In this document: positions 31,021 through 64,000 of the stretch, piece after piece
Layout: every line of letters starts with the position of its first letter
Position numbering within the stretch: the stretch's first letter is position 1
NCBI GenBank assembly: GCA_017448825.1
Contig: JAFSKR010000072.1
Location: forward strand, 1-64,000
Direction: 5' to 3'
From: Bacteroidaceae bacterium
GTDB lineage: Bacteria; Bacteroidota; Bacteroidia; Bacteroidales; Bacteroidaceae
Length of the DNA stretch: 64,000 bases
Made by a program: the position numbers and the translations under genes
The notes under the pieces: model-generated
The model's input: the letters and a program-made list of their open reading frames with translations, nothing else
Told to the model about the DNA's origin: nothing
The model's database searches: none

Positions 31021-31103
31021 GGCTTAACCATAAAGTCTCCTGAAATGAAACAGAATCTAAAATAGTTGTTTCACACGTGGAAGCCAGCCATGCGGGATGT
31101 TCT

Positions 31104-31111
31104 TAACTTTG
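31104..31111 (+). promoter_or_regulatory. -7 promoter element for the GH5 gene
   Basis: TAACTTTG, 35 bp upstream of the GH5 start. It suggests the remaining CAZyme genes (31147-43489) may form a transcript separate from the first GH43 gene. Confidence 0.5.
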
Positions 31112-31146
31112 CATCGTCAAAATACTAAAAACCAAAACTTACGACG

Positions 31147-33021: not shown

Positions 33022-33083
33022 GTGCAACGCACATTTTGAAAACTAAAAACTAAAAGTTAAGAACTGATTATCAATATCTAACC

Positions 33084-34979: not shown

Positions 34980-34990
34980 GATTTGTAGTT

Positions 34991-37456: not shown

Positions 37457-37500
37457 GCGAATATGATTGAATATATTTTTACCATTAAAACCTATTGTAT

Positions 37501-39558: not shown

Positions 39559-39578
39559 TCCACATAAAAACTAAGAAT

Positions 39579-41033: not shown

Positions 41034-41074
41034 TCCTTCCCAATACCTATTTTTACCCCATTAAACCCTATTAA

Positions 41075-43489
<2,415 letters not shown>

Positions 43490-43831: not shown

Positions 43832-43897
43832 TACTTCAGTTGGTAAATTTTATAATTGCTAAGCGTCGTTGAAGCTTATCTTTTTAGGAACGAAGAA

Positions 43898-46545: not shown

Positions 46546-48285
46546 ATGAAGAAATTTTATGAATATGCCTTGATGGGCGCGATAGTATTCACGGGTGTAA
46601 CAGCTTTTACGTCTTGTTCGTCGGATGAAGAGATAATTGACAATCCCGACTATGACCCCGTTGAGAACACGGTGAAGGCTCATTTGGCTTTCTCTTTGTC
46701 AGAAAACGCACACATCGCTGATACACGTATGACCACTGCGGTGGTGCAGGGACAGACCATCCCAGTGTTCCGTGGAATTCAGGACATCAAACTGATTCCA
46801 TACGAGGCCTTTGTGCCCAGCACGAATCCCGATGTTCTTCCTCTTCGGGACAAAGTTTATACCTTGGCAAATCTCACCGCTTTCGATAATGACGGTAAAC
46901 AGAATGCCAAGGTGTATAACGAACTTGCTATTCCTGTGGGCACAGGTGCATTCATGCTCTATGGACAGGCAATGAAGATGGACGACAAGTTTGAAAATGG
47001 CTCCATCATCGCTCCAGCTGATTTCGTTACGTCTGCTGCCAACTATGCCTTCTCGCTGGAACCCATTTATCCTTCGGGGGCTATCAATGAGCGAGCAAAC
47101 GCTTTGTTGGAATACGTGAAGGGTATCCGTTCCGTCGTGACTGAGGTCACCAATCACACCCTCCATTCTTACCTTGTGGCATTCCAACCTATAGCTGGCT
47201 CTTCTGCCAGCATCGAGGCAGCTGTTCAGGACTTGTGGAACAAGACTTGTGTCATCACAGACGATGCCGCAGGTGTAGCTGCTGTGAGAAACGCCATCAT
47301 TGCGCAAGGAGGTATCACCTATGCTACTATCAGTGAAGACGAGAAAGTGACCCTTATCGATGAGAAAGTGCTGGGTTATCCTGCAAATATCAACCTGCCT
47401 GATGGTGCTGCTTCTATCGACTGGTCGGGTGAAGAACCTGCCATCGTGACAGGAAGCCGTGAGGGATTGTATATGGCATCGCTCAACAGTTACACTTATC
47501 CTGCTGCACTCTACTACCGTGCCAATACCGCTATCGGTGTGTCTGACGATGATAGAGTGTCCGAACGATTCAACGGTAATTCTTGGCAGGAAATTCTGGA
47601 TGGCAACTATTATTCATGGAATAAGAAGGTGACGGGCAACACTCATTCTATCGCCCTGCAAAACCAAATACAATATGCAGTGGGTCGCTTAGACTTGCAA
47701 ATCAAGGCGGCTGCCTCAACGCTCTACGATGCAAAGGGTGAGGCTGTCACTGTCAGCACATCAGGCTTCCCTGTTTCCGCTATCTTAATCGGACATCAGA
47801 AGAGCGTGAACTTCCAGTTCCAACCCATTGAGACATCTTCAGAATACACCATCTATGACAAGGTGATGAACGGCACTCTCGCTGCTACTGCCGAGGTTCC
47901 CACAGGCATCAACCACACGCTGGTGTTGGAGACGGCTGAAGACATGAAACAGGTGAACATCGCTGTGGAAATGACCAACAACACGGGCAAGGACTTTGCC
48001 GGCAAGGATGGCATCGTGCCTGCTGGTGGCAAATTCTACCTCATTGGTGTGCTTGACTTGGAGAAGGAAGGGGAAATGAGCGGTAATGCCAGGAGCAAGA
48101 TATTCGAACAAGACTTCATCACCAAGGTGGTGTTCACCATCACTGAAGGTACACTGGGTACGAACAACACCGGACTGGGTGCTGCCTACAACGTAATCCC
48201 AGACTTGAAGACACCGCAATTGGAGGTGGCTTTCTCCGTCAACCTCGAATGGCAGGAAGGCATCACTTTCATCAAGGACATCTAA
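46546..48285 (+). CDS. fimbrillin (FimA/Mfa1-type), paralogue 2
   Basis: The protein has 579 residues with a lipoprotein signal (MKKFYEYALMGAIVFTGVTAFTSC, lipobox FTSC). It aligns by eye with paralogue 1: TRMTTAVVQGQTIPVFRGIQ near residue 62, YPANINLPDGAASIDW near 282, YAVGRLDLQI near 378 and the ending YNVIPDLKTPQLEVAFSVNL. It is 45 bp from paralogue 1 and 15 bp before the anchor gene. It could be an alternative major subunit or an accessory subunit; sequence alone does not decide. Confidence 0.82.
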   Translation: MKKFYEYALMGAIVFTGVTAFTSCSSDEEIIDNPDYDPVENTVKAHLAFSLSENAHIADTRMTTAVVQGQTIPVFRGIQDIKLIPYEAFVPSTNPDVLPLRDKVYTLANLTAFDNDGKQNAKVYNELAIPVGTGAFMLYGQAMKMDDKFENGSIIAPADFVTSAANYAFSLEPIYPSGAINERANALLEYVKGIRSVVTEVTNHTLHSYLVAFQPIAGSSASIEAAVQDLWNKTCVITDDAAGVAAVRNAIIAQGGITYATISEDEKVTLIDEKVLGYPANINLPDGAASIDWSGEEPAIVTGSREGLYMASLNSYTYPAALYYRANTAIGVSDDDRVSERFNGNSWQEILDGNYYSWNKKVTGNTHSIALQNQIQYAVGRLDLQIKAAASTLYDAKGEAVTVSTSGFPVSAILIGHQKSVNFQFQPIETSSEYTIYDKVMNGTLAATAEVPTGINHTLVLETAEDMKQVNIAVEMTNNTGKDFAGKDGIVPAGGKFYLIGVLDLEKEGEMSGNARSKIFEQDFITKVVFTITEGTLGTNNTGLGAAYNVIPDLKTPQLEVAFSVNLEWQEGITFIKDI

Positions 48286-48300
48286 TCAACAAGTCTTGAC

Positions 48301-49413
48301 ATGAGCACAAGAAAGTCATACGACCTACAACATGAGAAACGCATACCCTTGGTATGTGTTCTTGTGTTGTTGTTTGTACTCATGACAGGCTGCTCCGCCA
48401 TTGATGATGATTTAAGCGACTGCGGGAATGAGCACCAACTGGACTATGAACTCCAACTGGTGACCAATATGAATACCGAACTGCAAACGGAACTGACCAC
48501 ACAGACGGAAGTGGCCATTGCAAATTCCTTACGTTTGCACCTGAACGACATCTTCACTGATTTCGCCCACGATGTGGACTTATCGTTTTACGACACTGAA
48601 GGCGACTCTCTCCGCTTGCAGCATGATGAGCACATCATGGATGCCAATCAAGCCAGTTATACGCTTCACTTGCCCATGCGGAAGTATATGCATCTTGCCG
48701 TTGCCAATGTCGTGGACAATCCGATTGTCGCGCTTGTGAATGACGAACGTTGCCACACGTCTCTGCTTCGTCAGACAGGGAATGGTGGTACTACATCACA
48801 TCGCGACACCATCTCCTCACACACCACGGGCATCTTCACGGCACGCCAGCCAATGGATGTGCTGGAAGGTGTTAACCAGACGTTTAATGTGCACCTCTAT
48901 ATGGCGAACTGTGCCGCAGTGTTGGTGCTTGACCCACGAGGACAGAACATTGATGGTGTACGTGTTTTCAGTACAGGCTTTGCCACGGCTTTCAACATCG
49001 CTGACAGCACCTACATCTATTCAGAAAATCCCCCTATCGTGCGCACAGAGACCATCACACTCGATGAGAGTGCCTTGCAGGCTTTCTGTTCGGTGAACTT
49101 CCCCTCGCGCGTACATTATAATAATAATAACGAGGCAAAAGAGGATACCCGATCCATCATTCAGACTGAAGAACCCTCCATCGTTCCAATAGGTGAAGAA
49201 CCATTTTGGAGTTTTGAAGTTTATATACGTGCTGCCGATGGCACCATCACCCAAACGTGCCTGGGCATCAAGGAGCCACTGCAAGGTGGACAACTGAAAG
49301 TGTTCAAGTGTTGGGTCGATGAACAGGGAGCAGCGAGGACTGATGACCAAGAGGTGGCGGTCAGCGTAAAACTGAACTGGAAAGAAGGTTCTGAATTTAA
49401 TCCAGACCTATAA
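48301..49413 (+). CDS. FimB/Mfa2-type fimbrial anchor lipoprotein
   Basis: The protein has 370 residues with a lipoprotein signal (LVCVLVLLFVLMTGC, lipobox MTGC), then CSAIDDDLSDCGNEHQLDYEL, the acidic start usual in the FimB/Mfa2 family. It keeps NVHLYMANCAAVLVLDP and ends VAVSVKLNWKEGSEFNPDL. Members of this family cap and anchor type V pili in the outer membrane and set their length. Being placed between fimbrillin genes fits that role. A GCTTCGC-headed low-complexity spacer follows the stop codon. Confidence 0.85.
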   Translation: MSTRKSYDLQHEKRIPLVCVLVLLFVLMTGCSAIDDDLSDCGNEHQLDYELQLVTNMNTELQTELTTQTEVAIANSLRLHLNDIFTDFAHDVDLSFYDTEGDSLRLQHDEHIMDANQASYTLHLPMRKYMHLAVANVVDNPIVALVNDERCHTSLLRQTGNGGTTSHRDTISSHTTGIFTARQPMDVLEGVNQTFNVHLYMANCAAVLVLDPRGQNIDGVRVFSTGFATAFNIADSTYIYSENPPIVRTETITLDESALQAFCSVNFPSRVHYNNNNEAKEDTRSIIQTEEPSIVPIGEEPFWSFEVYIRAADGTITQTCLGIKEPLQGGQLKVFKCWVDEQGAARTDDQEVAVSVKLNWKEGSEFNPDL

Positions 49414-49502: not shown

Positions 49503-51251
49503 TTGAAGAGTAGGATATACATAATCATATTGACTCTGTTGACAGTTTGTGGATGGCAAAGTTGTTCAACAAGCGATGACGGTGATGCCCCCATCACCCA
49601 CGAGGGTTTCGTGACTGTTGATTTGGCGTTGAATGTATCTACGAATCAGCAAACACAGGACGGCACCCGTATGTCGGCAGACATCGTGCAAGGAGGGACG
49701 ACACCTGCTTATCGTGGCATTCAGGACTTACGGCTCTTCCCTTTTGGTGCTGCTGAATCTGTCAGCAGTTCAGACCAACCGTTGCAAGGTGTTACAGATG
49801 TAACAGAAGGAGAAAAAGTTTCTTCTGACAATCAAAACTATCTGAAAGAGGGTATAGACCTTTATATAGGAACAAAGTCATTTCTTAGTTATGGCAGGGC
49901 TAAAACACAGATAGTCAAGACTGGAGGTGGTGATACGGATGAAATAGCAACCAAATTTAAGAATGGCTCTGTGATTGCCCACTATCCGACAAACATAGCC
50001 AAAGCTGGTGATGTCACTTTCGATTTGGAGCCTATCAAGGCCACAAATACAGCAGATGCCAAGGCTACAGCCATTGCTGAGTCTCTGACAGAGATTGCCA
50101 ATGTCGAGGCTACGGTCGGAGGAGTAACCAAGAGCTGGAAAGACATACCAACAGGAAACCTCAAACTTTATTTCGAGAACTTCACTGGTGGTGGAAATCT
50201 TATCGCTGGTTCCAGTGCAAATGCCCAAAAACTTGTAGCGCAGTTGAACGCGGATCTTGTGAACCTCGTTTTCTCAACAGATGATACAGAAAATCAAGCG
50301 GTAAGGGATGCTATTGTGACAAAAATTGGGACAACGACCATCGAAACTGGTTATCCCGCCAATATGTATCTCCCTGATGGTTCCGCTGTGCTCAAGTGGG
50401 ATGAGACTACTTCAAAGTTTCAGCCAGTTGTCACAAAGTCTTCCACTGATGCGTTGGATATGAACGACCCAAGTCGTTACGTATATCCTGCAGAGTTGTA
50501 CTACTACGGCAATAGTCCTATTAGAACCTCTACGAATAGTCAAAAGGACAAATATACCCAGACATGGGAAAACGTCTTGAATCATTATTCCTCCGCAACA
50601 GAAGTGGCAGTATCCACTCAATCGGTAGCTATTGAGAAGCCTCTCGATTACGGAGTGGCTTGTTTGGTGGCTACCATCGTGAGCAGTAGCGATGAATTAA
50701 AAGATGCTGATGGTAACAATGTGAGTGTTGCCAATTCTGTATTCCCTCTAAAGGCGATTCTGATTGCGGGTCAATTATCTCAAGCCTTTAATTTTGAGCC
50801 AGTTGAAGATGATGAGGACGAACACATCATCTATGACATAGACATCCCCAGTGTGGCACTCTCAACAACAGAATCCACTCCCATCTATACACTGACGTTT
50901 TCGAGCAGGCTCAACAAGCCTGTGAATGTCGTGCTGGAGTTCGAGAATAAAAGCGGAGCACTGTTTCATGGTTACAACGGTGGTATAGTCTATCCCGACA
51001 CCAAGTTCTATTTGGCGGGTAGAATCACACCATCAACGAATGTCAATGAGGACGAACACAAACAGCGGGTGTTCACTCATGACTATCAGACTACGGTTCA
51101 GTTGAAAATAGGCAGTTTGAAGAATGCCTACAATGTGATTCCAGACTTGAAGTCCGCGCAGTATGATGTGGAGGTCGTGAACTTTGGCGTCAAACGATGG
51201 ACTGATGTCAATGCAGACAATCCAGAAAGGCACTCCTTTTATAATTGGTAG
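49503..51251 (+). CDS. fimbrillin (FimA/Mfa1-type), paralogue 3, probable TTG start
   Basis: The protein has 582 residues with a lipoprotein signal (MKSRIYIIILTLLTVCGWQSC, lipobox WQSC). It shares TRMSADIVQGGTTPAYRGIQ near residue 57, YPANMYLPDGSAVLKWD near 282 and KNAYNVIPDLKSAQYDVEVV near the end with the two other paralogues. It departs from them after that point: instead of the SVDLxW ending it has VNFGVKRWTDVNADNPERH. No in-frame ATG lies between the upstream TGA at 49482 and the signal peptide, so translation very probably starts at the TTG at 49503. The different last strand suggests a special position in the pilus, for example near the tip; this is inference. Confidence 0.8.
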   Translation: MKSRIYIIILTLLTVCGWQSCSTSDDGDAPITHEGFVTVDLALNVSTNQQTQDGTRMSADIVQGGTTPAYRGIQDLRLFPFGAAESVSSSDQPLQGVTDVTEGEKVSSDNQNYLKEGIDLYIGTKSFLSYGRAKTQIVKTGGGDTDEIATKFKNGSVIAHYPTNIAKAGDVTFDLEPIKATNTADAKATAIAESLTEIANVEATVGGVTKSWKDIPTGNLKLYFENFTGGGNLIAGSSANAQKLVAQLNADLVNLVFSTDDTENQAVRDAIVTKIGTTTIETGYPANMYLPDGSAVLKWDETTSKFQPVVTKSSTDALDMNDPSRYVYPAELYYYGNSPIRTSTNSQKDKYTQTWENVLNHYSSATEVAVSTQSVAIEKPLDYGVACLVATIVSSSDELKDADGNNVSVANSVFPLKAILIAGQLSQAFNFEPVEDDEDEHIIYDIDIPSVALSTTESTPIYTLTFSSRLNKPVNVVLEFENKSGALFHGYNGGIVYPDTKFYLAGRITPSTNVNEDEHKQRVFTHDYQTTVQLKIGSLKNAYNVIPDLKSAQYDVEVVNFGVKRWTDVNADNPERHSFYNW

Positions 51252-51313: not shown

Positions 51314-52408
51314 ATGAAGATGATGCATACATATATTTCTCGGTTGGCAATCCTGCTCGGCATGACGCTCATGCTGTGCTGTGCCTGTTCCAATGACGAT
51401 AGCAGCGAACAGCACACACGGCAAGAACGTGAGTTCCACTTCATACCCTGCTGGCAGACACTTCCCGACATCAATGCCTCTCTCACACGTTCCATCCCCA
51501 CAGGTTATGACCTCTATAGCGGCCAAGACCCAGTCAGCATCCGTGGCTATATCACCACCAGCAACCGCATAGACTTCTATGGCGATTTCACTTATGATGG
51601 GGAGATTTGGTCTTCGAAGGTGCCTATTGACGATGACACTTACTACATCTATGGTCTCATGCCCAGCCTATATGCAGACAACATCTCTGTGAGAACACGC
51701 ACGGGTGATGACTTCGCTAATGGTGCTACGCTCACACTTTCTGGTCTTGATGCAGTGATGGCAGATGACATTTGCATCATCACAGGGGTGGCGAAGAGTG
51801 AGAATAGGGCGGAACCGACGATGGAACTGGGAAAATTTAGTTATACGACCACCACAACAGCGGGTGGGCACAACTATGTTTACCTGTTGCTGGACCACCT
51901 CTATGCCGCCCTTCACTTCAAGATAAGTATCGACAACGAATATAGCAAACTGCGCACCATCAAGGTGAAGTCGATGAAATTGACCCCTGAAGCAGAATCC
52001 TCGACCGCGACGGTGCGCACAGTGGATGCAACGGTGACGCTTACGCCTACCTCTGATGGCAGCACACCAATGGCACTCTCCTTCACCAACCAGACAGGTG
52101 AGGGAAAGGGAATCACTCTCTATCCTGAGAATCCAACGGAGGCAAAAGATTTCTATGCCTACATAGCACCGCTGACCACGACTGCCTCCAACAGACGTTT
52201 CCTTCTGGAATGCACATACGATGTGTATGACAGCAAGGGCACCCTTTTGGTTAGAGAAAATGAAACGTCAAAGAACTACTTGACTCTCAATAGCAACACA
52301 CTTTTGTCGGGTGAAAGATACATGGTTGAAATAACCGTGATTCCTACATACCTCTATGTACTTTCCGACCCCGATTTGGACAATCCAACGTTTATCCTAA
52401 GTAATTGA
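51314..52408 (+). CDS. fimbrillin-like lipoprotein, probable accessory or tip subunit
   Basis: The protein has 364 residues with a lipoprotein signal (LAILLGMTLMLCCAC, lipobox CCAC). The sequence pattern (FHFIPCWQT ... IRGYITTSNRIDFYGDFTYDG ... YYIYGLMPS ... HLYAALHFKISID) is that of Mfa-like / fimbrillin-A-associated proteins: a strand-rich N-terminal domain and a C-terminal domain ending in YMVEITVIPTYLYV. It lacks the TRMS motif of the three fimbrillins. In type V pilus operons such proteins follow the anchor gene and often form the tip complex. The giant gene starts 10 bp downstream, which suggests coupled expression. Confidence 0.75.
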   Translation: MKMMHTYISRLAILLGMTLMLCCACSNDDSSEQHTRQEREFHFIPCWQTLPDINASLTRSIPTGYDLYSGQDPVSIRGYITTSNRIDFYGDFTYDGEIWSSKVPIDDDTYYIYGLMPSLYADNISVRTRTGDDFANGATLTLSGLDAVMADDICIITGVAKSENRAEPTMELGKFSYTTTTTAGGHNYVYLLLDHLYAALHFKISIDNEYSKLRTIKVKSMKLTPEAESSTATVRTVDATVTLTPTSDGSTPMALSFTNQTGEGKGITLYPENPTEAKDFYAYIAPLTTTASNRRFLLECTYDVYDSKGTLLVRENETSKNYLTLNSNTLLSGERYMVEITVIPTYLYVLSDPDLDNPTFILSN

Positions 52409-52418
52409 AGAATAAGCT

Positions 52419-55400
52419 ATGCGTAAAATACTGACCATATTGTTTTTTTGTTTGTCTGCGTTGCTGATGCAGGCACAGATAACCATTGGCGGTAGCGTCT
52501 ATGGCGGCGGCAACGAGGGTAAAGTCGGTGGCAGCACTACCGTCACCGTCAGAGCTGGCGACCTGCATAAAGTATTCGGTGGTGCCCGTATGGCTGATGT
52601 CGGTGGCAGTGCTTTTGTCAATATCGATGGTGAACACGCCTCTGGCTATATTCTCATTGACTACGTCTATGGCGGCAACGACATATCGGGAACGATAGGA
52701 ACGTCGGAAACACTTCCTGCTGGACTGGAAACAGAAGAACTGACTGAATATAAGGTTGACAATACATGGAATGCCTTCGTGCATATCAGCCGCTCAACAA
52801 AGACTGTTACGACGGGTGAAGGCGAAGGTGCAACATCAGAGACTGTTGATGACCAGAAAATCTATATAGGTCAGCTATTTGCTGGTGGCAACGGGGACTA
52901 TACCTATGGTTCAACGTCAACTACTACGGGGGAAGGTGATGAGGCTGTCACGACCACAACCTACACCGTCACTGATAAGAAAACAGGGGAGGAAATAGAG
53001 ACGAGCAGCAGTGAATTCCTCAAACCCGACCTTGCCAAGACCTATCTGCAGCTGCATGGCGGTTCTATCGTCTATGCATACGGTGGTGGCAACAATGCCA
53101 CAGTGACGGAGAAGACGGTGATATGCCTTAACAACCCGAGTACTGTGGTGAACGAAATCAAAGTCGATGATAACGGAGAGTACGATGAGAACGGTACGGA
53201 TGCCATCACTAAGGACAACCGCACTCAGAATAAGATGGATCTTAATCCGACCTATTCTTATCCTTCCAGTGACAAGTACCAGATAGGCAGCTTCTTCGGC
53301 GGAAACAACACGGCTGAGATGAAGATTCGCCCAGAGTGGCATCTGAAAAAGGGTAAGATTCGCAACCTCTACTCAGGTGGTAATCGTGGTACCATGACCA
53401 GTCCTGATGGGTTGCTGTTAGTTATTGACCCTGCATCTGACGATGACTTGGAAATAGAGAATGTCTATGGAGGTTGCCGTATGGCTGACGTGCGCCCCCA
53501 AGTAAACGGAGTCGATACGCCTACCCAGAACTTGGCAGGTTACCATTTCCCCGACGAATTTTCTGCCCGTCTGCTGGTCAAAGGTGGTAAAATCACCAAT
53601 GTCTATGGTGGCAACGACATCACGGGAAAAGTGTATGGCGGTAATGCGGTGGGTGTCTATACCAGCATCGAAGGAGATATCTATGGCGGTGGCAACGGCT
53701 CGTATCCCTATACCGACAACGGCAACCTGACCCCCGCTGCCAAGCAGATATACGAGGACTTCATATACGACCCCAATGAGAAGGACGAGGACGGAAACAG
53801 CATCTTCGCCTCTTCTCTCGATGCCCTCAACGCCTATCGTCCCAATGCCGAACAGGTGTCCATCCGTGTGTGGGGACCCAGTGAAAATGACCCCACTATT
53901 ATCCGAGGCTCCATCTACTGCGGTGGTAATAGTGCCACGCTGAAACCCAAGGATGGTAAAACCAACCCCACAGTGGAACTGAAGATTGGCTCTCACGTCA
54001 TTGCTCAAAACGTCTTCCTTGGCAACAATGGCGAGAATATGGTGAAGACCAATGAAGAAGAGGGTGACAATTATATCCATGAAGGTGTCCTGCGAACCAT
54101 GCGGAGAACCGACTTGACGAATGATGGTTCAAAATTCTGTTCTTTAGACTTGACGGATGAAGCCACCTTCGCCTCCTATATGAACGGTGCAGCCATGGAC
54201 ATCATGCCCAGCGTGGTGTTCGACAAGAAGAATGATGACGGCACAGGAGACCCCGAGACCTATCAGGATTATACCTCCTATTTTGGCTCGTTCTATTGTG
54301 GTGGCAATGTGGGAAGCATCACAAAAGCAGGATGTGAAGCCATCAACTTCAATTATAAGGTAGTCATCTTCGAGAAATTGGTGGGTGGGTGCAACAACGC
54401 GATTGTGGATGCACAATACGATGAGAGTAACAACCAGTATAATGCTCGCTATGAAGGAGGTCTTATCGGTGACCCAGAAGCCTCGACAGGCAATAAGATG
54501 ATGCTTAATCTTTCAGGTTTGAAGATTGAACCAAGACGATGGAAGACAACCCCAGACAACAAAACTTTTCCAGATAATTATCTGGAGTGGAACACCTTCC
54601 TCAATGGCAACACGGTAGATCCTGTCACCGAAATAGTTTACGACAATGAGCAAGACGAGAATGGTCAAGTTGTAACAGATGATGAAGGTCACCCTGTGAA
54701 ATTGAACTATCAGCGGTCAACTGACGACGACCTTGCTCGCCGCTTCGAGGGTGGCAACATCTTCGGCGGTTGCTATACCAGCGGTATTGTGAGGGGCAAC
54801 GTGGTCATCAATGTGGATGCCACCCTCGTAGAACGTGAGAAACTCTTTGACGAGGTGGAGTCAGACGAATTGGGAGAGGAAGTCAGTCTCTATGGAACAG
54901 ACCAGACTACTGAAACCACTTACCACATCACTAAGCGCAACACTGGTGTCATCCTTGGTCAGCAAGGTATGGACGTGCTTGGTCGTGCTCTCAGTGTATT
55001 TGGCGGTGGCAAAGGTTCTGGCACTGAAGTCTGGGGCAACACGACCATCAACCTGAACAAGGGTTACACTTTTCAGGTATTCGGTGGCAGTGCAGAAGGC
55101 GTCATTGGCAAACCTGACGATGGTGACGGCAATCCTTACTCCTTTAATAGTAAGACCTTCAAATACAATCCAAATTACAGTTGCTATGTCAACTTGAGAG
55201 GCAACCATGCTGGTGTATCGAAAAAAGCCGACAGCAGCGAGGATATGGCAGAGGCGGAGTTTATCTATGGTGGTGGTTTCGAAGGCCCTATCTGCGGCAA
55301 TACTGTCATCAACTTAGGCAAAGGCCGTATCTTCAACTCCTTTGCCGGTAGTTGTAATGCTGACATCTTAGGACATACCGAGACCTATATCGGTAGGCAG

Positions 55401-58400
55401 GTGCAGGACGATTATAAAAACGACCTCGGTTCCCATGTTGATAGCGATAATACCTATGCAGAAGGCTTCCCTTGGATTCGCGACATCGTGTATGGCGGCA
55501 ACGACTTGGGTGGAGAAATTCTTCGCACAGAAGACTTCTCTGGGCGAGTGAGCGATTTTGCCAGTACCAAAGTGTACACCTCGACCAGTGCTGAGGCCGC
55601 TGCACTCACCACAGCCTCCTCCTACGTGGAGTACCTACAGGGGCGTGCTGATGCCATCTTTGGTGGTTGCTATGGTACCTACGATTATACCGACGAGAAG
55701 TATAGTGCCTACACTTATACAAAAGGGGAAGATGGAATCCCTTCTGGCAAAACAGCGGGCGACCCTCGCGAAGGCTCAGGCTTCAAGAAGCCCTATATGC
55801 CCAATGCTTTCGTCAACTTCTGCCCCACCTACACCAATGACAACAACGTGGTGAAGAAAGTTTACGGTGCGGGACAGGGCTATCCCGAAGACCGTACGGG
55901 CGACAAGTTGCAGGATCACAGTTATGTGCTGATTGATATCCCGGAGGGTATCGGGAATTTCGCCAATATGGAGGTCTTCGGTGCCGGTGCCTATAACGGT
56001 TTGGGTATGCGTTTCACTGCAGAGGGAACTTTTGCAGAAGAATTTGACCTCAACGAGGCCTCTGCTGTCATCGACTTGATGCGGGGTCAGGTGGGCGCGG
56101 CCTACGGTGGCAGTTACGCGGAGGGCATCACCCGTCGTACCTTGGTGAATGTGCCAGAAGGATCCACCATTAAAATTGGCAGCATTTTTGGTGGTGCCTA
56201 TGGTAGTGATGACTATTTGCTGCCTTGTGATGTCTATGAAGCCAATGTGAACTATCTGACCAAGAGTGAAGATGCCTACTTGATTTGGAATCCCGAAAGA
56301 ACTGATCAGGACGACAATACGATTGGCAACAAACTGATGAAAGGTGCCATCTATGGTGGTAACAACAATTCACGACGCACCCTCTATGGCAAAATCAATA
56401 TCTCTGCTCCCGTCAGACAGAAACATCCAACCTATGGCATGACCACTGCTACCATCTATGGTGCTGGTTGTGGTTCCTTGACCTGGAGTGAATATACAGA
56501 GGTCAACTTGAATGCAGATGCCAGTGTTTGGGAGGTTTATGGCGGTGCTGAGGCTGGAAGTGTGATGAGTGCCGAAAGTGTACAGAAATACATTAGTATA
56601 AATCCCAATAACGTTGATCCAACCAAGTGGCAGGCCGCATGGACCTTAGGAAGTGGCTATGATCCCACGTCGTTGGCTGAAGGCTATGCCAATAATCAGT
56701 ACACCAATCTGAGCAATCAATTGGTAAGAACTGCCGAAATGGATGACAGGGAGAACAAGATTTATCGGTATAACACCAATGTCATCATCAACAAAGATGC
56801 TTATGTTGGTAATTATGCATACGGTGGTGGACTTGGTAAGGAAGGAGATGCTTTTGTGGGTAGTGGAGATATCTACGGCACAACCTATATAGCCCTCCTT
56901 GGCGGCACGGTGAAAAAGGACCTCTATGCAGCGGGTACGCTGGGTGCCGTCTATAACCTGTTTGGTGCGGAAAACTACACGGTCAGTTCCAATGCCTACA
57001 TCGCTGGCGGCACGGTGCGTAACGTGTATGGCGGTGGCTGGAAGGGTGATGTCGGCTATACGACAATGACTGTCGATGACGAAGGGGAGACCGCCACTTT
57101 CGATGATGCCAACGAGAAGCCTGGAGAGGCACATGTGGTCATCGGTATCCGTGAAGACCAGACCGACAAGCCCACCGATTACGGCTTCTATAATGGTGTG
57201 CCCGCCATCCAGCGTAATGCCTACGGCGGTGGTGAGGGCGGTGCCATATTCGGTCAGGCTTACCTGACACTGAACAACGGCTATGTGGGCTATGAGTATA
57301 AGGACGGAACCTATCAGGAGAAAATCGACGACGATACCTACTATGTCAATAACGAATATGCTGGCGACAACCGTCTGAAAGACTGCGGAAATATGTTTGG
57401 TGGCGGTTATGATGTACGAAGCAGCGTGGATGTCACCAATGTCACGATGTGGGGCGGTATAGTTCGCAACAGCATACATGGTGGCGGTGAGATTGCCACT
57501 ATCGGTCGTGGTGCCATTGAGGCCAGTGGCCCCTTAAACTCCGTTCGTAAACTGAAAGGCATCTACAAGCCAGGAAAGACCAACGTCGAGATGTTCAACG
57601 GTCATGTGCTTCGTAATGTCTTCGGTGGCGGTAAGGGCTACAATACTTTCGGTTATGGTCAGCAGGGTACGCTCTATATGGATGGCTACGTGTTCGGACA
57701 GACAGAGGTGCATGTTCATGGAGGTGAAATCGGTACCGATGAGGGCTTGGCCGATGGCTATGGCAACGTGTTTGGCGGTGGCGATGTGGGCTACGTTTAC
57801 AGTTCCAGTGTGTATAGCGACAAGACCAAAGCGAAGACCAGTACAGGCTCTCCTGGACACATCTATTATTATAATAGTGCTGGCAATCTGACGGAAGACT
57901 GTAAGGTGGTTGTGGCACCGTATCTGCAGGTGAAGAATACCCCCGTCGTCTATGCTGGTCAGACTTATAACAAGTATGACTATGTGCCGACGGACTATCT
58001 GAACACCTTGCCGAAGAAAGACAGCGACGGTAACTATACTGGTGGATGGGAAAACCTCTTCACAGGCGATGCTGATGGTGAGGAGGAACGTGGCATCTAT
58101 ATCCACAACGCAGTGTTTGCTGGTGGTAACGTGTCATCGAACAGTGACCAGACTTACGCCAACGCAACGACCGTTTACGGCAATACCACCGCTACGCTCT
58201 ACGATGTCTATCATCGTGACTTCATCACCGTGGGTACGGAGCATACTGGTGGACTTTATGGTGGCGGCAACCTCTCCGTGGTTGATGGCTACCGTGAGTT
58301 GAACATCACCAACTATGGCACCGACTACTACGGACTGAAGCAGACCATCAGTATTGATGAGTACCGTGGTCTCTCTAATCGTGAGCGTGCCTACTTCCAA

Positions 58401-61400
58401 CTGGAGTATAAGTGTATTGCCGCCTCTGAGACCAATGCTGCTGGCAAGACGGGTATCACCATCGACGGTGTCTTCTATGAAACAGGAGAACGCTTGGAGG
58501 AAGAGAAGTATCTGAAACTGCTGAATAATGAGGATGAGGCCATTGCCCAGAGGGTGAAGGACAGTTTCGAGCCATACGGCTTTTGCTCTATCTATGCCGG
58601 TCGTCTGCTGAACACCATCCAGCGTGCCGACCTCTGCGGTGTGTTCGGATCGCGCATGGTGCTCCAGGGAGCCAAGGACCGTGTGGCAGAGGTGGGTGAG
58701 GACATCGACTACACCATCAACCGTGTGGGCGAACTGTCGCTCAACCAGCAACATTCCGTCAGACTGGCTGATGAGGGTACCGATGCCACGCATGGAAACT
58801 ATTTCGGCATCTACAGTCTCGTGAACTATCTGGGCAACCTGACCAGCGACGTGCGCTTCGGTAACTCCTATGTCAACGGTAATGGCGTCACGGATACGGA
58901 AAAGACCTATTACAGTTATAAGTCAGCGAACCCCACCAGCAGCGACCGTAACAAGGGACAGAGTTCCAATCAAGTGGCTTTGGCATCGGGTGTGTTCTTG
59001 GAACTGACGACAGAGAATAGTACGAAAGAAAAGAAAGACTATGGCTACGTGACGGGTGTCATCGAGTTGGACCTCATCAATGTGAAGAAAGATGATGTGG
59101 GCGGTGGCTTCGTCTATGCCAAGAACGAGCATCGCGTGCCGAAGTACTATCCCAACAAGAGCAATGTAATCCTTTCGGAATATAATAACCCCAAGACCGT
59201 GGGTGATATTGAGTTGCGTGACGAGGCACGTACATATAAGCGTTACTATTATACCAACGAGAACCTGCCTACTGGCGATGAGGCCGAAGGAGCCACTGTC
59301 ATCAGCGGTGATGATTCTCACGTCTTCCAGACGATGGCATGGCAGACCTCTGGCAACTTCATCCATCCATCGAAGCGCATTGTTGACGATTGTTACCCAA
59401 CCAACAACGCCTATATCATCGGTTCGGATAATTATTCCGAGGCTCACTATTGGTACGTGAAGGGTGAGGTCTATATCTACGACCAAAAGGTATCGGCCTA
59501 TACGGGTTCAGCCAATGCCTACTCGAAAGAGGTACACCTGCCGCTCACCATTACCGCCGCCTCCCACGGCAAGTTGCAGTTGCTTAACGTGAAGCCCAAC
59601 CTCTATGCCTACAAGACAGACAAGGATGGTCAGACGGTGAAGATAGGCACAGCAGGCTCCGATGGCAAACCCATTGACAAGGTGTGGGTGAACAACGAGA
59701 GCGACAGTTATGGGCTGAACGATGTCATCTCTTGGTGGGATTGGCATCAGTTGTCGGCCAAAGACCGCCAGTACTTCGTCACCCAGACCTACGTGAACTG
59801 CGTCACCTGCATCGTGGATGGTGTTGAGTATGAGCAGGGCACCTATGTCATGGATCAGAATGACTACGACCATTTCATGGGCGAACCCCATGTCATCAGC
59901 GATTCTCAGGGCGAAACGTTCCAGGATGATGGCGGTCACGACATCGGTAAGACCTTCGTGTTCCGTTCGTCTAATAACATCAGTCACGAGAATGGCTATG
60001 TGCTCACCTTCGACATGAATAGCCCGAAGGTGTGGGATGACTATTTCTCACCTGTCTCTGGCAGCAGTGCCACTGGAAAGATGATGAAGTCGGACTATCA
60101 GGCTCTGTTCACAGACGGTCTGTCCGATGCCCAAAAGCAGGCCATCATCGATGCTTGGCGCGAGGGTCCCACCTTCACACCCACGGAGACAGGTGTCTAT
60201 GGAAAACGGTCGTATAATGTAGGTGAGATTATCACCGAAGCCACTTATCTGGATGCGGGTGAGGGTCAGGACAAGATGGAGAGAGCCTACGTGGCAATCG
60301 AGTCAGTCACCTATTCTTACAATGGTACGATGAAGACGGTGAATTCTGGCACGGCCATTTCCTTAACAGAATTCAACAGCATCGGCACCTCTCAATCCTC
60401 GTTCAGAGAAGCCTTCTTCTGCACCAACTCCGTGAAACTGACCAACGAGAATTATATGCTCTATGGCGAGTTGAAGACGGCTGACGAGATTGCCGCCATG
60501 AAGGCCATCGAAGGCAAGTCTGCCACGGATGATGAAATAGATGCTGCCCTCACCCCAGCTTATATCTGTACCCAAGATGGAGAATATGGTGGGCAACGCT
60601 TCGAGACAGGCAAGAACTATGGTGCCATCCAGGCTTGGAGTTCACTGCCAGAGGCCGACCGTACGAAGTTCAACTATAATTTCGATGCGCTCGACCTGTT
60701 GACCAACACCGATTACTTGAAGGTTTATCCGGATGTCATCACGTCGCCGGCAACCGAGACTACGGTGGCTGCCTTCCATTCACCCTACACCGACCAGGTG
60801 AAAGTGGAGTATCAGGCTGTTTTCAAGAAAGATGGCGTTGACGTGAAGTTCAATGGTGCCAACCTTGACGATGGTGCCATCCTCACCAATGAACAGTTTG
60901 AGACCATCCGCAACGACAAACGACACTACACCCATGTGGAGACCAGAAATAATGGCGATAATGTCTATATTGCCAAGGAAAATTTCATCTATCTTGGAAC
61001 GCCTTATGGCATCGGACAAGTGGTAGATGCCGATGTTTACCGTGCCAACACCCAATATGTGGAAGTCGTCGTCTTCGAGACGGCAGGCGAGTGGTACTAC
61101 TGTTATGAAGACTACAAGGACGAGAACGGTCAGACGGTGGCCAAGGGCACCCAAATTACCAAGGCCGACTATGGCAATGTGCCCAACTACCAGCAGTACT
61201 TCATCATCCAAGGTCAAGAGCCTACGGAGACCACAACACTCTATGTCAGCCGCGAGTCGAATGCTTACGATGTGCTGAAGGAGAAGATTATCACTGTGGT
61301 CTATCAGTACACCTATTATGAGGATGAGGACGACGGCAGTGTGAAGATGACCAACGAGCTGCATGTCATCAATGTCCATCTCGACTTGGAGAGCGGTGTG

Positions 61401-64000
61401 CCTCAAATCGGTACGCTCAATCCGCCAGCCACCGTATTGCCGGGCAACGCCATCGGACTGAAAGCCCCTGATGTGAACCCCGGACTCTATGAGGTGCTCA
61501 CCAGCGGATGGGAGCTCTATGCCACACACGACGATGCCTACAACCATCGCAATGGCATGGACTTTGAGAACAACAAAACGCCCCTCTATTGGTACCAGAA
61601 CCAGAAGAATTATGTGGCGTTCTATTCGAAGACTTACCTCGGCAAGACCTACTCCAACCCTGTGCCGCTCTCGGTGGCCAACTATCACGACCTGGATGCC
61701 GTGATGCAGGACAAGGAGCACCATTTGTATGTGGACCGCTCTGACGTGGATCGTCCCAGCAAGATATACATTGACAACCGCCAATGTAAGAGCGACGAGA
61801 CAAAGAACGAACTCGACCTGCTGAAGGACTTCTACGACTTGAGTGTGCTCAACAGTTCATCTACGGGAGTTGCTGACGGAAAGGTGACGGCCGAAGGTGC
61901 GCTGAATGGTCATGCCCTGTTGGGTAACCATGTGTATGCAGGCAACAACTTGGAGTTCTTCCTCAACAGTGATGTCAGTCCGAAGGCTACCTACACGGTG
62001 GATGAAAATACTGCCACCTGGTCGTCCATCGGCAGCGGCTCCAACGATCCCTGCTTCTCGGGCACACTGCACGGTGATGGCCATACCATCAGCGGACTCG
62101 ACCACTCGCTGTTCGACAAGCTCTGCGGCGAGGTCTATAACCTTGGTGTCACAGGTTCGTTCACGGGTGCTGGCGTTGCCGAGACTGGCGAAGGTTATGT
62201 GGAGAACTGCTGGGTGACGACCACTGGAACACCAACGCAAGGTGAGGGTCACTATGCCGTCTTCGGCAACCCATCAAGAGAGAGCGGGGATGAGCGAGGA
62301 CCCATTCAGGTGGTGAACTGCTACTATCCCGAGAGCAACGCCTACACCGAGCCGACATCCACCATCCACGGTCAGGCTACGCAGATGCCCGACAAGGCGT
62401 TCTACAACGGTACCGTGGCATACAACCTAAACGGTTTCTACCTGAAGAAGCGCTATTACGATAATACGACGTGGACGGGCGATAAGACATCGTACAACTA
62501 CCTGCCGTTGGCAGCCGATGGCAGTCTGGCCGAGACGATGAGCACCGCCTGGTATCCCAACACCTACGCGCTCTATCAGCCCAAGGGAACAGAAGAAGCA
62601 CCTTACCTCGGCTATGTGGAGAGTCGCTTCTACGATGGCGATTTCGTCTATGCCAACGGCACTATTCCCGAAAGCACGAACGTCCGTCTGAGGACAGTCA
62701 CCGTGGGTGAGGGAGAAGACGCTACGACCAAGACGTACTACACCCCCATCTGGCCCGACGACTACCTCTTCTTCGGACAGACACTCACCTACGGACACGT
62801 GGATGGTCGCACCCATCAGGCGACCCCGTCAGCTATCAGCCGCAGCAACGAGCGTGTGGTGACTTCTGCCGATGGCAACCGCGTTTACCGTGCACCAGCC
62901 TATTACCAAAACGGAACGATGGGTGTGGCTCACTTCAATTCGAATGCCGTCTTCGCCCAAACCAAGAAGAACGATGCCAGCGTCACCGCTTACCAAAACA
63001 TGACGGCCATCGACTTCACTGGCTACCACGACGATGGCTACCAATATGGCAGCGTGACAGCATCGGGCAGTTTCTTCCCACCGCTGCTTGACGACGATGG
63101 TCTCACCCGTTTCCAAAACGTTGACCTGACACGTAACCTGCTGGTTTATACCGGCACCAGCACAGCGGCTGCCCAAAAGACGGGCAATACGGTGAGCGCC
63201 TACCTGCCCGATGGAACCTATCAGGAGACCAACAGTACCTACCACACGGTAGCAGTTTGGGACAGGTATGCTGATGCCATTCGTGGACACTGGGTACAAC
63301 TGCAGGAGGGACAGTATGTGGCACCTCGTGACCATCTGTTAGTGGACAAGGCAGACTTCAACTGTCCTATCAGCTACACCTTCGCCGATGGTAAACGTAT
63401 GTGGTACCAGCGTGAGCCCAGCAACTATGCAGGTCAGAAGACGGTGACGACCGAAGAAAGCGGCACAACAACAACGACCGTGGTCTTTGACAGTCGTGCT
63501 GGTTGGGAAGGTATCAGTCTGCCGTTCAGTGCCGAGCTGGTGACCACACAAGACAAGGGTGAAATCACGCACTTCTATAAAGGTAGCACCACGGGACATG
63601 AGTACTGGCTGCGCACCTACGAAGGGGGTACACTCTCGGAAACCGTCTTTGAGGCGGCCTTCAACCCTCTTGATGCAGGTGCCAACACCAAGGACTATAC
63701 CAACACCTTCCTGTGGGACTACTATTACAGCAAGGATGACTATCAGGACAAGAACAAGGATCAATATCAGCAAGACTATTACAGCAGCGACTATCTGCAA
63801 AGCAGGTATCCTGTCACCGACTATCCTTATGGCGATGCCGGTATGCCTTACCTGATTGGTTTCCCAGGTAACCGCTATTATGAGTTCGACCTTAGCGGTG
63901 AGTGGACTCCCGATTACCGTCTCCTCGATAAGACCATCGAGCATCCGGGCAAGCAAGTCATCACCTTCGCCTCGGCAGAGGGAATCACCATTGGCGTGAG
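52419..64000 (+). CDS. giant secreted repeat protein of the fimbrial operon (incomplete at the right edge)
   Basis: An open frame of 3860 complete codons reaches the window edge without a stop. In-frame reading was checked at about 20 points. The signal peptide is MRKILTILFFCLSALLMQA. About residues 20-1960 carry dozens of (V/I)(Y/F)GGG or YGGN motifs, as in GGSVYGGGNEGKVGGSTTV, NVYGGCRMADV and RNVFGGGKGYNTFG, spaced irregularly (often 30-80 residues), each with short Gly-Thr-Val strands: probably a beta-helix or stacked-sheet stalk. Residues about 1960-3200 hold other beta-rich domains. A GLUG-like segment lies near 3205-3285 (HTISGLDHSLFDKLCGEVYN). From about 3688 a domain reads AGWEGISLPFSAELV and GMPYLIGFPGNRYYEF, of a type usually close to the C-terminus. 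By position it may be a tip or surface adhesin. Confidence 0.88.
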   Translation, partial: MRKILTILFFCLSALLMQAQITIGGSVYGGGNEGKVGGSTTVTVRAGDLHKVFGGARMADVGGSAFVNIDGEHASGYILIDYVYGGNDISGTIGTSETLPAGLETEELTEYKVDNTWNAFVHISRSTKTVTTGEGEGATSETVDDQKIYIGQLFAGGNGDYTYGSTSTTTGEGDEAVTTTTYTVTDKKTGEEIETSSSEFLKPDLAKTYLQLHGGSIVYAYGGGNNATVTEKTVICLNNPSTVVNEIKVDDNGEYDENGTDAITKDNRTQNKMDLNPTYSYPSSDKYQIGSFFGGNNTAEMKIRPEWHLKKGKIRNLYSGGNRGTMTSPDGLLLVIDPASDDDLEIENVYGGCRMADVRPQVNGVDTPTQNLAGYHFPDEFSARLLVKGGKITNVYGGNDITGKVYGGNAVGVYTSIEGDIYGGGNGSYPYTDNGNLTPAAKQIYEDFIYDPNEKDEDGNSIFASSLDALNAYRPNAEQVSIRVWGPSENDPTIIRGSIYCGGNSATLKPKDGKTNPTVELKIGSHVIAQNVFLGNNGENMVKTNEEEGDNYIHEGVLRTMRRTDLTNDGSKFCSLDLTDEATFASYMNGAAMDIMPSVVFDKKNDDGTGDPETYQDYTSYFGSFYCGGNVGSITKAGCEAINFNYKVVIFEKLVGGCNNAIVDAQYDESNNQYNARYEGGLIGDPEASTGNKMMLNLSGLKIEPRRWKTTPDNKTFPDNYLEWNTFLNGNTVDPVTEIVYDNEQDENGQVVTDDEGHPVKLNYQRSTDDDLARRFEGGNIFGGCYTSGIVRGNVVINVDATLVEREKLFDEVESDELGEEVSLYGTDQTTETTYHITKRNTGVILGQQGMDVLGRALSVFGGGKGSGTEVWGNTTINLNKGYTFQVFGGSAEGVIGKPDDGDGNPYSFNSKTFKYNPNYSCYVNLRGNHAGVSKKADSSEDMAEAEFIYGGGFEGPICGNTVINLGKGRIFNSFAGSCNADILGHTETYIGRQVQDDYKNDLGSHVDSDNTYAEGFPWIRDIVYGGNDLGGEILRTEDFSGRVSDFASTKVYTSTSAEAAALTTASSYVEYLQGRADAIFGGCYGTYDYTDEKYSAYTYTKGEDGIPSGKTAGDPREGSGFKKPYMPNAFVNFCPTYTNDNNVVKKVYGAGQGYPEDRTGDKLQDHSYVLIDIPEGIGNFANMEVFGAGAYNGLGMRFTAEGTFAEEFDLNEASAVIDLMRGQVGAAYGGSYAEGITRRTLVNVPEGSTIKIGSIFGGAYGSDDYLLPCDVYEANVNYLTKSEDAYLIWNPERTDQDDNTIGNKLMKGAIYGGNNNSRRTLYGKINISAPVRQKHPTYGMTTATIYGAGCGSLTWSEYTEVNLNADASVWEVYGGAEAGSVMSAESVQKYISINPNNVDPTKWQAAWTLGSGYDPTSLAEGYANNQYTNLSNQLVRTAEMDDRENKIYRYNTNVIINKDAYVGNYAYGGGLGKEGDAFVGSGDIYGTTYIALLGGTVKKDLYAAGTLGAVYNLFGAENYTVSSNAYIAGGTVRNVYGGGWKGDVGYTTMTVDDEGETATFDDANEKPGEAHVVIGIREDQTDKPTDYGFYNGVPAIQRNAYGGGEGGAIFGQAYLTLNNGYVGYEYKDGTYQEKIDDDTYYVNNEYAGDNRLKDCGNMFGGGYDVRSSVDVTNVTMWGGIVRNSIHGGGEIATIGRGAIEASGPLNSVRKLKGIYKPGKTNVEMFNGHVLRNVFGGGKGYNTFGYGQQGTLYMDGYVFGQTEVHVHGGEIGTDEGLADGYGNVFGGGDVGYVYSSSVYSDKTKAKTSTGSPGHIYYYNSAGNLTEDCKVVVAPYLQVKNTPVVYAGQTYNKYDYVPTDYLNTLPKKDSDGNYTGGWENLFTGDADGEEERGIYIHNAVFAGGNVSSNSDQTYANATTVYGNTTATLYDVYHRDFITVGTEHTGGLYGGGNLSVVDGYRELNITNYGTDYYGLKQTISIDEYRGLSNRERAYFQLEYKCIAASETNAAGKTGITIDGVFYETGERLEEEKYLKLLNNEDEAIAQRVKDSFEPYGFCSIYAGRLLNTIQRADLCGVFGSRMVLQGAKDRVAEVGEDIDYTINRVGELSLNQQHSVRLADEGTDATHGNYFGIYSLVNYLGNLTSDVRFGNSYVNGNGVTDTEKTYYSYKSANPTSSDRNKGQSSNQVALASGVFLELTTENSTKEKKDYGYVTGVIELDLINVKKDDVGGGFVYAKNEHRVPKYYPNKSNVILSEYNNPKTVGDIELRDEARTYKRYYYTNENLPTGDEAEGATVISGDDSHVFQTMAWQTSGNFIHPSKRIVDDCYPTNNAYIIGSDNYSEAHYWYVKGEVYIYDQKVSAYTGSANAYSKEVHLPLTITAASHGKLQLLNVKPNLYAYKTDKDGQTVKIGTAGSDGKPIDKVWVNNESDSYGLNDVISWWDWHQLSAKDRQYFVTQTYVNCVTCIVDGVEYEQGTYVMDQNDYDHFMGEPHVISDSQGETFQDDGGHDIGKTFVFRSSNNISHENGYVLTFDMNSPKVWDDYFSPVSGSSATGKMMKSDYQALFTDGLSDAQKQAIIDAWREGPTFTPTETGVYGKRSYNVGEIITEATYLDAGEGQDKMERAYVAIESVTYSYNGTMKTVNSGTAISLTEFNSIGTSQSSFREAFFCTNSVKLTNENYMLYGELKTADEIAAMKAIEGKSATDDEIDAALTPAYICTQDGEYGGQRFETGKNYGAIQAWSSLPEADRTKFNYNFDALDLLTNTDYLKVYPDVITSPATETTVAAFHSPYTDQVKVEYQAVFKKDGVDVKFNGANLDDGAILTNEQFETIRNDKRHYTHVETRNNGDNVYIAKENFIYLGTPYGIGQVVDADVYRANTQYVEVVVFETAGEWYYCYEDYKDENGQTVAKGTQITKADYGNVPNYQQYFIIQGQEPTETTTLYVSRESNAYDVLKEKIITVVYQYTYYEDEDDGSVKMTNELHVINVHLDLESGVPQIGTLNPPATVLPGNAIGLKAPDVNPGLYEVLTSGWELYATHDDAYNHRNGMDFENNKTPLYWYQNQKNYVAFYSKTYLGKTYSNPVPLSVANYHDLDAVMQDKEHHLYVDRSDVDRPSKIYIDNRQCKSDETKNELDLLKDFYDLSVLNSSSTGVADGKVTAEGALNGHALLGNHVYAGNNLEFFLNSDVSPKATYTVDENTATWSSIGSGSNDPCFSGTLHGDGHTISGLDHSLFDKLCGEVYNLGVTGSFTGAGVAETGEGYVENCWVTTTGTPTQGEGHYAVFGNPSRESGDERGPIQVVNCYYPESNAYTEPTSTIHGQATQMPDKAFYNGTVAYNLNGFYLKKRYYDNTTWTGDKTSYNYLPLAADGSLAETMSTAWYPNTYALYQPKGTEEAPYLGYVESRFYDGDFVYANGTIPESTNVRLRTVTVGEGEDATTKTYYTPIWPDDYLFFGQTLTYGHVDGRTHQATPSAISRSNERVVTSADGNRVYRAPAYYQNGTMGVAHFNSNAVFAQTKKNDASVTAYQNMTAIDFTGYHDDGYQYGSVTASGSFFPPLLDDDGLTRFQNVDLTRNLLVYTGTSTAAAQKTGNTVSAYLPDGTYQETNSTYHTVAVWDRYADAIRGHWVQLQEGQYVAPRDHLLVDKADFNCPISYTFADGKRMWYQREPSNYAGQKTVTTEESGTTTTTVVFDSRAGWEGISLPFSAELVTTQDKGEITHFYKGSTTGHEYWLRTYEGGTLSETVFEAAFNPLDAGANTKDYTNTFLWDYYYSKDDYQDKNKDQYQQDYYSSDYLQSRYPVTDYPYGDAGMPYLIGFPGNRYYEFDLSGEWTPDYRLLDKTIEHPGKQVITFASAEGITIGV

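Follow-up and report, generated by a model that had tools for sequence, protein, structure and literature searches.

Among described systems, Mfa5 of P. gingivalis offers the nearest comparison for the proteins considered here. In the portions of the literature drawn on for this work, Mfa5 is the product of the last mfa gene, measures 1228 aa in the strain studied, depends on the type IX secretion system (T9SS) and forms part of the fimbria; some strains carry two tandem genes, a VWA domain occurs in genotypes A-C, and a sorting domain is present in all genotypes (PMC7835359, PMC8313007). A further reference point is SprB of gliding Flavobacterium, for which the consulted part of the source describes a surface adhesin with T9SS export and a type B sorting domain (PMC10994853). 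Here we analyzed a 64,000-nucleotide stretch of DNA from a Bacteroidaceae bacterium (hereafter the window), which corresponds to bases 1-64000 of the 96,563-bp contig JAFSKR010000072.1 and in which a pilus gene cluster is followed by a giant frame with Tyr/Phe-Gly-Gly-Gly (YGGG) motifs. This frame, GIA, and a second one that follows it on the contig, GIB, encode giant proteins that are real and that the pilus operon keeps as a conserved pair. Neither is described, judging from listings, in the open-licence literature on YGGG repeat proteins, giant adhesins of rumen Prevotella, type V pili and ruminal fimbriae of Prevotella, GLUG in Prevotella, P. communis, or T9SS giant adhesins. We propose, with a probability of roughly 0.5, that GIA is a giant surface protein of a type V pilus operon and bears a YGGG stalk that is continued by GIB. 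The giants and the gene next to them are arranged as follows.

52419..64000 in the window, running to 64466 on the contig, + strand: GIA, giant YGGG protein, 4015 aa; YGGG coils at residues ~28-1950, then a conserved stretch, then a T9SS type A sorting-domain match at 3960-4008
Contig 64567-73677, 100 bp after GIA, + strand: GIB, another YGGG giant, of 3036 aa; Fn3_assoc/CHB_HEX_C_1 and M26_N/GLUG modules come first, and YGGG motifs occupy the part that starts at residue 1691 and stops 22 residues short of the C-terminus
Contig 73684-74502, 6 bp after GIB, + strand: thioredoxin-like/DUF5106 gene, 272 aa

An earlier note, drawn from the letters of the window, had reported a frame without a stop that opens with a signal peptide 10 bp after a fimbrillin-like gene and carries YGGG repeats in its first half. 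The frame indeed stays open over 52419-63998 (+ strand, 3860 codons) and starts 10 bp past the stop of the fimbrillin-like gene at 51314-52408 (364 aa), hereafter F5, and its N-terminus is signal-peptide-like as read by eye rather than with a predictor. Extension of the contig past the window, as the note had advised, located the stop at base 64466, 466 bases on, with the frame intact and not broken just beyond the window. Strict [YF]GGG motifs in GIA number 12 against 0.67 expected (500 shuffles, maximum 4), and looser [YF][GAC]G[GACN] motifs 29 against 2.4 (shuffles, maximum 8); since these counts lie far above those of the shuffles, and 26 of the 27 [YF]GG motifs fall within residues 28-1947, the repeats of the first half are real. 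GIB holds 17 strict YGGG/FGGG motifs against 0.50 expected from shuffles. What did not stand is the placing of the giant at the end of the fimbrial operon, as GIB and the thioredoxin-like gene come after it.

Over GIA and GIB together, the 928 motif spacings, which were drawn from related genomes and are not independent of one another, have 25, 26, and 27 residues as their commonest short values (64, 54, and 29 occurrences, respectively). The coil follows the recurring pattern V-[YF]-G-G-G-N-x-[GA]-x-[VI]-x-G-N-T-x-V-x-[LI], with alternating hydrophobic residues, and resembles one turn of a beta-solenoid, which judging by this sequence pattern is probably the fold of the YGGG part. Searches with the whole of GIA (4015 aa) returned no Pfam or NCBIfam family, those with two GIA relatives returned 0 Pfam families, and beyond the YGGG part, the sorting domain is the one family assigned within ~2000 residues. 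The GLUG-like segment claimed for GIA in the earlier note has no Pfam match there, and what speaks for it is one weak structure match, in which a putative IgA1 protease is hit by a profile built from the C-terminal 1031 aa (E = 0.012, profile positions 173-300). Nine cysteine columns are invariant across 17 GIA sequences and might, as a guess, explain the thioredoxin-like neighbour gene.

When the genus was searched with the second half of GIA, 23 of its 45 genomes gave a match, among them that of the window. Eighteen of these matches are strong (own genome included), those in G002 and G025 are distant, and those in G011, G024, and G037 are weak at E 1e-6 to 1e-7, G024 having turned out to hold a distant relative of GIA. 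All 18 strong loci, the window's among them, have F5 directly before GIA, and GIB-like frames come after GIA in the 16 strong loci whose contig continues (16/16); a 468-aa frame separates the two in G042, and GIB is in pieces in G030, G035, and G007. Three of the four distant giants likewise have an F5-like match ahead of them (56-89 bits). A wider scan with a conserved 511-aa stretch of GIA led to 240 stretches that were confirmed, and the locus counts draw on the best 80; at least 10 of these 80 overlap with loci of the genus and family samples, and 75 had enough upstream sequence, while 5 did not. F5 proved to be the nearest upstream gene of GIA in 70 of the 75 loci and any fimbrial profile lay upstream in 72; a GIB profile was detected downstream in 49 of the 59 loci with at least 3 kb. 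The fimbrial link of the giant is thus kept in the wider (72/75) as well as in the close loci (18/18), and homologues sit mainly beside fimbrial genes; a majority away from them would, according to the earlier note, have refuted its reading.

In the titles of the best 80, Prevotella, Prevotellaceae, Bacteroidaceae, and Bacteroidales predominate, with a few cases of Porphyromonadaceae, Muribaculaceae, or simply bacterium; Prevotella communis E15-14 and Xylanibacter brevis ATCC 19188 are the two named isolates in this set. Of these titles, 25 refer to a ruminant animal or a forestomach and 29 more carry RUG labels, which we take to mean rumen uncultured genome. The complete chromosome of P. communis E15-14 (G263) holds the cluster intact, with DUF3575, pilins, anchor, F5', F5, GIA (4028 aa), GIB (2453 aa), and the thioredoxin-like gene (the last by look), which speaks against an assembly artefact. 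In the family sample, GIA was matched in 61 of 399 genomes (a few weakly) and the profile of the F3 anchor in 49 of 399; both occur together in 27 genomes against 7.5 expected (hypergeometric P 1.5e-12), with the overlap counted by hand, both samples taken as the same genomes, and a statistic that ignores kinship. In the order sample, 6 of 393 genomes match GIA, including the window's own, one weak match, and four other strong ones.

The genes upstream of GIA in the window are the following.

43856..44698, + strand: DUF3575 gene, first of the pilus cluster, start codon uncertain (PF12099, E 2.2e-44)
44728..46500, + strand: F1, putative shaft fimbrillin by its position, with a lipoprotein-like N-terminus
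46546..48285, + strand: F2, putative shaft fimbrillin, F1 paralogue (35% identity to F1)
48301..49413, + strand: F3, Mfa2/FimB-type pilus anchor (relatives match PF08842 Mfa2)
49503..51251, + strand: F4, fimbrillin-like, kin of F1 and F2 by sequence comparison
51314..52408, + strand: F5, fimbrillin-like, directly upstream of GIA (relatives match PF13149 Mfa_like_1)

These genes share one strand with GIA, and the successive gaps from DUF3575 through F1-F5 to GIA measure 29, 45, 15, 89, 62, and 10 bp; from spacing and strand we infer co-transcription of the pilus genes and the giants. A promoter and terminator scan of the operon stayed near the shuffled expectation (12 vs 13.9; 10 vs 7.1) and was uninformative. 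A DUF3575 match lies near the cluster start in many relatives. The window's own F1-F5 gave no Pfam match at 0.01. Nonetheless, the cluster can be assigned by sequence to the type V (FimA/Mfa) pilus operons, because relatives of F3, F5' (a further pilin of the relatives), and F5 match Mfa2, FimA, and Mfa_like_1, respectively. PF08842 is found in 7 of 15 members of the F3 family at E up to 0.01 (best 3.6e-8; one further relative is left out of this count), FimA in 8 of 13 F5' proteins, and PF13149 in 2 of 18 members of the F5 family (best 1.8e-5); F3 of the window has no PF08842 match, yet is 40-70% identical to other F3 members. In the alignment of F1, F2, and F4 (A1, 30 sequences), the Cys27 and Arg59 columns are invariant, which would fit lipoprotein precursors, protease trimming, and strand-exchange polymerisation. 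Searches of solved structures with pilin profiles gave nothing useful. The paralogues F1, F2, and F4 are ~31-35% identical, and the FimA-type F5' gene of most relatives is missing from the window. Before the operon, window positions 28501-43489 hold a run of carbohydrate-active genes (several glycoside hydrolases by look, a SASA esterase by Pfam), and further glycoside-hydrolase-like genes come after it on the contig.

Among 18 genomes of one genus-level group, GIA identity ranges from 48 to 90% with a mean of 55 (two of the 18 sequences are cut by contig ends), and the mean identities rank as DUF3575 60, GIA 55, anchor 51, F4 39, and F5 34. GIA is more conserved than the anchor in 93 of 120 genome pairs, than F4 in 115 of 120, and than F5 in 150 of 153. 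To judge from these identities, GIA would be unlike a variable host-facing adhesin, and its conservation fits a scaffold. Separately, 22 genomes have the anchor but no GIA, and in three of them the slot behind the pilus genes was inspected: in G405 (L209, G405:C22, 5559-17702), a protein of 4047 aa that matches neither the GIA nor the GIB profile follows a set of DUF3575, shaft, and Mfa2-type anchor genes, and in G056 and G266 the same slot holds 754-1002-aa proteins. Because other large proteins occupy it in these three genomes, the slot looks modular.

With an E threshold of 1, the T9SS type A model TIGR04183 recognized 15 of the 16 GIA tails tested (lowest E 3.9e-9), and PF18962 recognized 8 of them (lowest E 2.5e-5). 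A search of the genome for T9SS machinery, limited to SprA and a PorU-type sortase, recovered both above cut-off (2678.7 and 957.4 bits, respectively); neither exceeded the cut-off in any of 14 control genomes, two of which gave a sub-threshold sortase match. These results support a T9SS route, which the earlier note had raised through its comparison with mfa5, and the C-terminal signal that it had suggested looking for. We regard it as likely that the T9SS exports GIA to the cell surface and that this protein belongs with the pilus operon.

The partner giant is built differently at its two ends. Residues 963-1029 of GIB match PF05342 at 4.8e-9, and IgA1 protease structures are hit by the stretch 966-1060 (2e-4). 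Ten GIB relatives were searched over their first 999 residues; tandem Fn3_assoc/CHB_HEX_C_1 domains were recognized in eight and an M26_N region in eight. Pairwise comparison of the window's GIB with eight relatives (E up to 1e-20, at most four pieces per pair) gave, for the first 500-600 residues, no match in three, 27-33% identity in four, and 49% in one (G014), and for the C-terminal part an identity of 42-54%. GIB lengths in relatives reach 4994 and 5352 aa. None of 10 GIB tails matched a T9SS sorting model, and 13 GIB C-termini, inspected by eye, end in a coil, often with a short P/T-rich or acidic tail. Truncation or frameshift of GIB as the cause of the missing sorting domain was discarded, as no sorting tail was seen by eye in the three frames around the 13 stops. 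The start of the thioredoxin-like protein comes immediately after the GIB stop in 11 of 13 cases, and BLAST found this gene in 7 other relatives. The GIB of G030 is divided among three frames that overlap (856, 546, and 1556 aa), which denotes either an assembly fault or a decaying gene.

Relatives also show these chains split or fused. Two distant operons have the order reversed, with a coil-ending chain first and then a chain with a signal-peptide-like start, a coil, and a GIA-like C-terminus (2171 + 3229 aa in G024; 702 or 820, the start being uncertain, + 3793 aa in G025); the second chain begins 12 bp on or overlaps by 4. Single-chain versions are found in G002 (6296 aa) and in another copy of G025 (6341 aa). 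The upstream chain of G024 aligns to residues 7-2385 of the 6341-aa chain at 42%, and its second chain aligns piecewise from ~3670-3690 to the end, positions from which it follows that the single chains hold ~1300 extra residues, coils, in between. The start of mature GIA (profile position 20) corresponds to internal residue 701 of the second chain in G024 and 1396 of that in G025, after further YGGG motifs. Since the coils preceding GIA belong to the same chain in these two relatives, their natural supplier in the window operon would be GIB. GIB is in turn split coil to coil in G519 (1121 + at least 1160 aa) and L120 (1112 + at least 597 aa), with new signal-peptide-like starts, and in G010 into 2035 and 3256 aa, 1.3 kb apart and with the same kind of ends; it is a single chain in G036 and in the window genome.

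Altogether, 41 adjacent pairs of motif-bearing frames were listed, or 39 without repeated loci, comprising 32 of GIA plus the next frame, three that involve broken frames, and four distinct coil-to-coil junctions (G024, G025, G519, and L120), at each of which the second chain has a signal-peptide-like start by eye. To count as a junction, a pair had to carry a motif close to each of the two chain ends, which leaves just these fresh starts independent of the selection; a stricter first pattern had returned one genome, and the looser motif returned the four. By arithmetic, a direct join between the last GIB coil and the first GIA coil would set the motifs ~26 residues apart, the usual distance, which is compatible with stacking and no demonstration of it. 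That GIB continues the stalk of GIA we hold tentatively, as a serious possibility that falls short of probable.

As we envisage it, a signal peptide would take GIA across the inner membrane, and the T9SS, led by the C-terminal sorting domain, would take it across the outer membrane. The YGGG half would then form a stack of ~26-residue coils, probably a beta-solenoid, acting as a stiff stalk. In the part of the source consulted, T9SS substrates are thought to exit the translocon sorting-domain first (PMC10994853); the N-terminal coil of GIA would accordingly come out last and lie farthest from the cell, where GIB could stack. The last coil of GIB would stack on the first coil of GIA and prolong the stalk, and the variable N-terminal modules of GIB (Fn3_assoc, chitobiase-C-terminal-like, and M26/GLUG-like) would take the outermost position and carry out the binding; that the stalk works together with the pilus is likewise presumed. 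In its general form, a multi-chain stalk would consist of separately exported chains joined at coil edges, with a sorting domain only in the cell-proximal one and the distal chain riding with its partner or being added outside; this extension is speculative and, on balance, unlikely.

Several observations weigh against a GIA-GIB stalk of the pilus operon. The weak point of the model is the export of GIB, which has no detectable sorting domain, and the sorting domain of the window's own GIA is itself faint, as its tail matches TIGR04183 at E 0.0024 and 17.8 bits, below the cut-off of 23, and gives no Pfam match. The solenoid is read from periodicity, and profile searches of solved structures returned nothing significant for the YGGG part. 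A chain that starts or ends at a coil edge is to be expected of any repeat protein and by itself is no proof of stacking; moreover, the true N-termini of the second chains in G024 and G025 match the GIA start weakly (9.0 and 20.2 bits), and in G035 and G007 GIB is split away from a coil edge, with a first part that ends in its own short sorting-like tail by eye. As to linkage, 3 of the 75 loci (L168, L169, and L174) carry GIA without a fimbrial profile in the upstream stretch examined, GIA lying in all three downstream of a 489-aa gene that presumably encodes an amidotransferase-like protein. Likewise, 10 of the 59 loci have no GIB profile in the downstream stretch examined, non-fimbrial genes stand before the 6341-aa giant of G025, which nevertheless has an F5-like match on its downstream side, and the orthologous Mfa2-type anchor occurs without GIA in 22 of 49 genomes. 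Finally, when DUF3575 and GIA are compared over 66 pairs, DUF3575 shows the higher conservation in 41 and GIA in 25.

On an alternative reading, GIA, and GIB with it, would be an Mfa5-like part of the pilus tip complex that docks via F5, with no separate stalk. Such a role would suit a cluster place and a T9SS route similar to those of Mfa5, which in the portions of the literature consulted is part of purified fimbriae and tandem too, as well as the presence of F5 next to GIA on the upstream side in 70 of 75 loci and the slot being filled by other large proteins in G405, G056, and G266. However, GIA has no VWA match and about three times the size of Mfa5, it is conserved where F5 is not, unlike a tightly fitted pair, and three loci hold it with no pilus genes upstream, all of which makes us doubt the tip assignment. 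Filing GIA as Mfa5 was rejected for want of a VWA match and of demonstrated kinship, even if it may work like Mfa5. The same three detached copies (L168, L169, and L174), along with the non-fimbrial neighbours upstream of the fused G025 giant, would rather suit a stand-alone giant T9SS surface protein merely co-transcribed with the pilus, a kind to which the T9SS-exported Flavobacterium adhesin SprB belongs. This we deem unlikely, given that linkage is kept in 72 of 75 loci and that GIA and the orthologous anchor coincide in 27 genomes against the 7.5 expected.

A narrower alternative leaves GIA in place and denies its contact with GIB, which would be periplasmic or exported by a signal of its own, the matching ends being a mere trait of repeats. 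The failure of all 10 GIB tails to match the sorting model and the readiness of any repeat protein to end at a coil edge lend it plausibility, against which stand the one-chain versions in relatives and the internal position of the first GIA coil in two of them; we consider it credible without being probable. That GIA might instead be a giant secreted enzyme or contact toxin is suggested by the ~2000 residues after the YGGG part to which, apart from the sorting domain, no family is assigned. This reading was set aside as very improbable: neither Pfam nor NCBIfam finds a family in the whole of GIA, hence no catalytic one, nor does Pfam in two relatives, and the C-terminus is a conserved sorting domain and not a variable toxin-like end.

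That a protein of 4000 residues keeps at least 48% identity across 18 genomes and stays linked with pilus genes argues strongly for a fixed structural role. As many relatives are of ruminant origin, this role may lie in the attachment of rumen Prevotella to feed particles, to mucus, or to one another. The split and fused forms raise the question of whether separately secreted chains can build one solenoid, and the tails of GIB that of whether a T9SS substrate can carry a partner without a sorting signal; a multi-chain stalk, if true, would represent an unknown way for a chain without a sorting domain to reach the surface via or beside the T9SS. The detached copies in L168, L169, and L174 show, for their part, that GIA can live apart from pilus genes.

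Set against known systems, the comparison with Mfa5 made in the earlier note is apt in that Mfa5, within the sections consulted, is large, last among the mfa genes, T9SS-dependent, and sometimes tandem. As a claim of analogy it survives in part: the sorting domain and the place behind the pilins agree, whereas the position at the operon end and a VWA match do not. GIA thus resembles the Mfa5 of those sections in being large, in its T9SS sorting domain, in its location behind pilin genes, and in that two tandem genes are possible, and differs from it in length (4015 vs 1228 aa), in its YGGG coils, and in giving no VWA match; GIB, without a detectable sorting domain, departs from the Mfa5 genotypes described there. 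GIA would share with SprB, itself giant in size, export to the surface by the T9SS; the sorting domain of GIA matches the type A model and that of SprB is of type B. With the M26 IgA1 protease N-terminal/GLUG region, the pair has in common only the stretch at GIB 963-1029, plus the weak structure match at the C-terminus of GIA, and Pfam recognizes no peptidase domain in GIA or GIB. The cluster as a whole is like the type V (FimA/Mfa) pilus operons of Bacteroidales in its DUF3575 gene, its Mfa2-type anchor, and its FimA/Mfa_like-type pilins, and unlike them in ending with two giant YGGG proteins and a thioredoxin-like gene.

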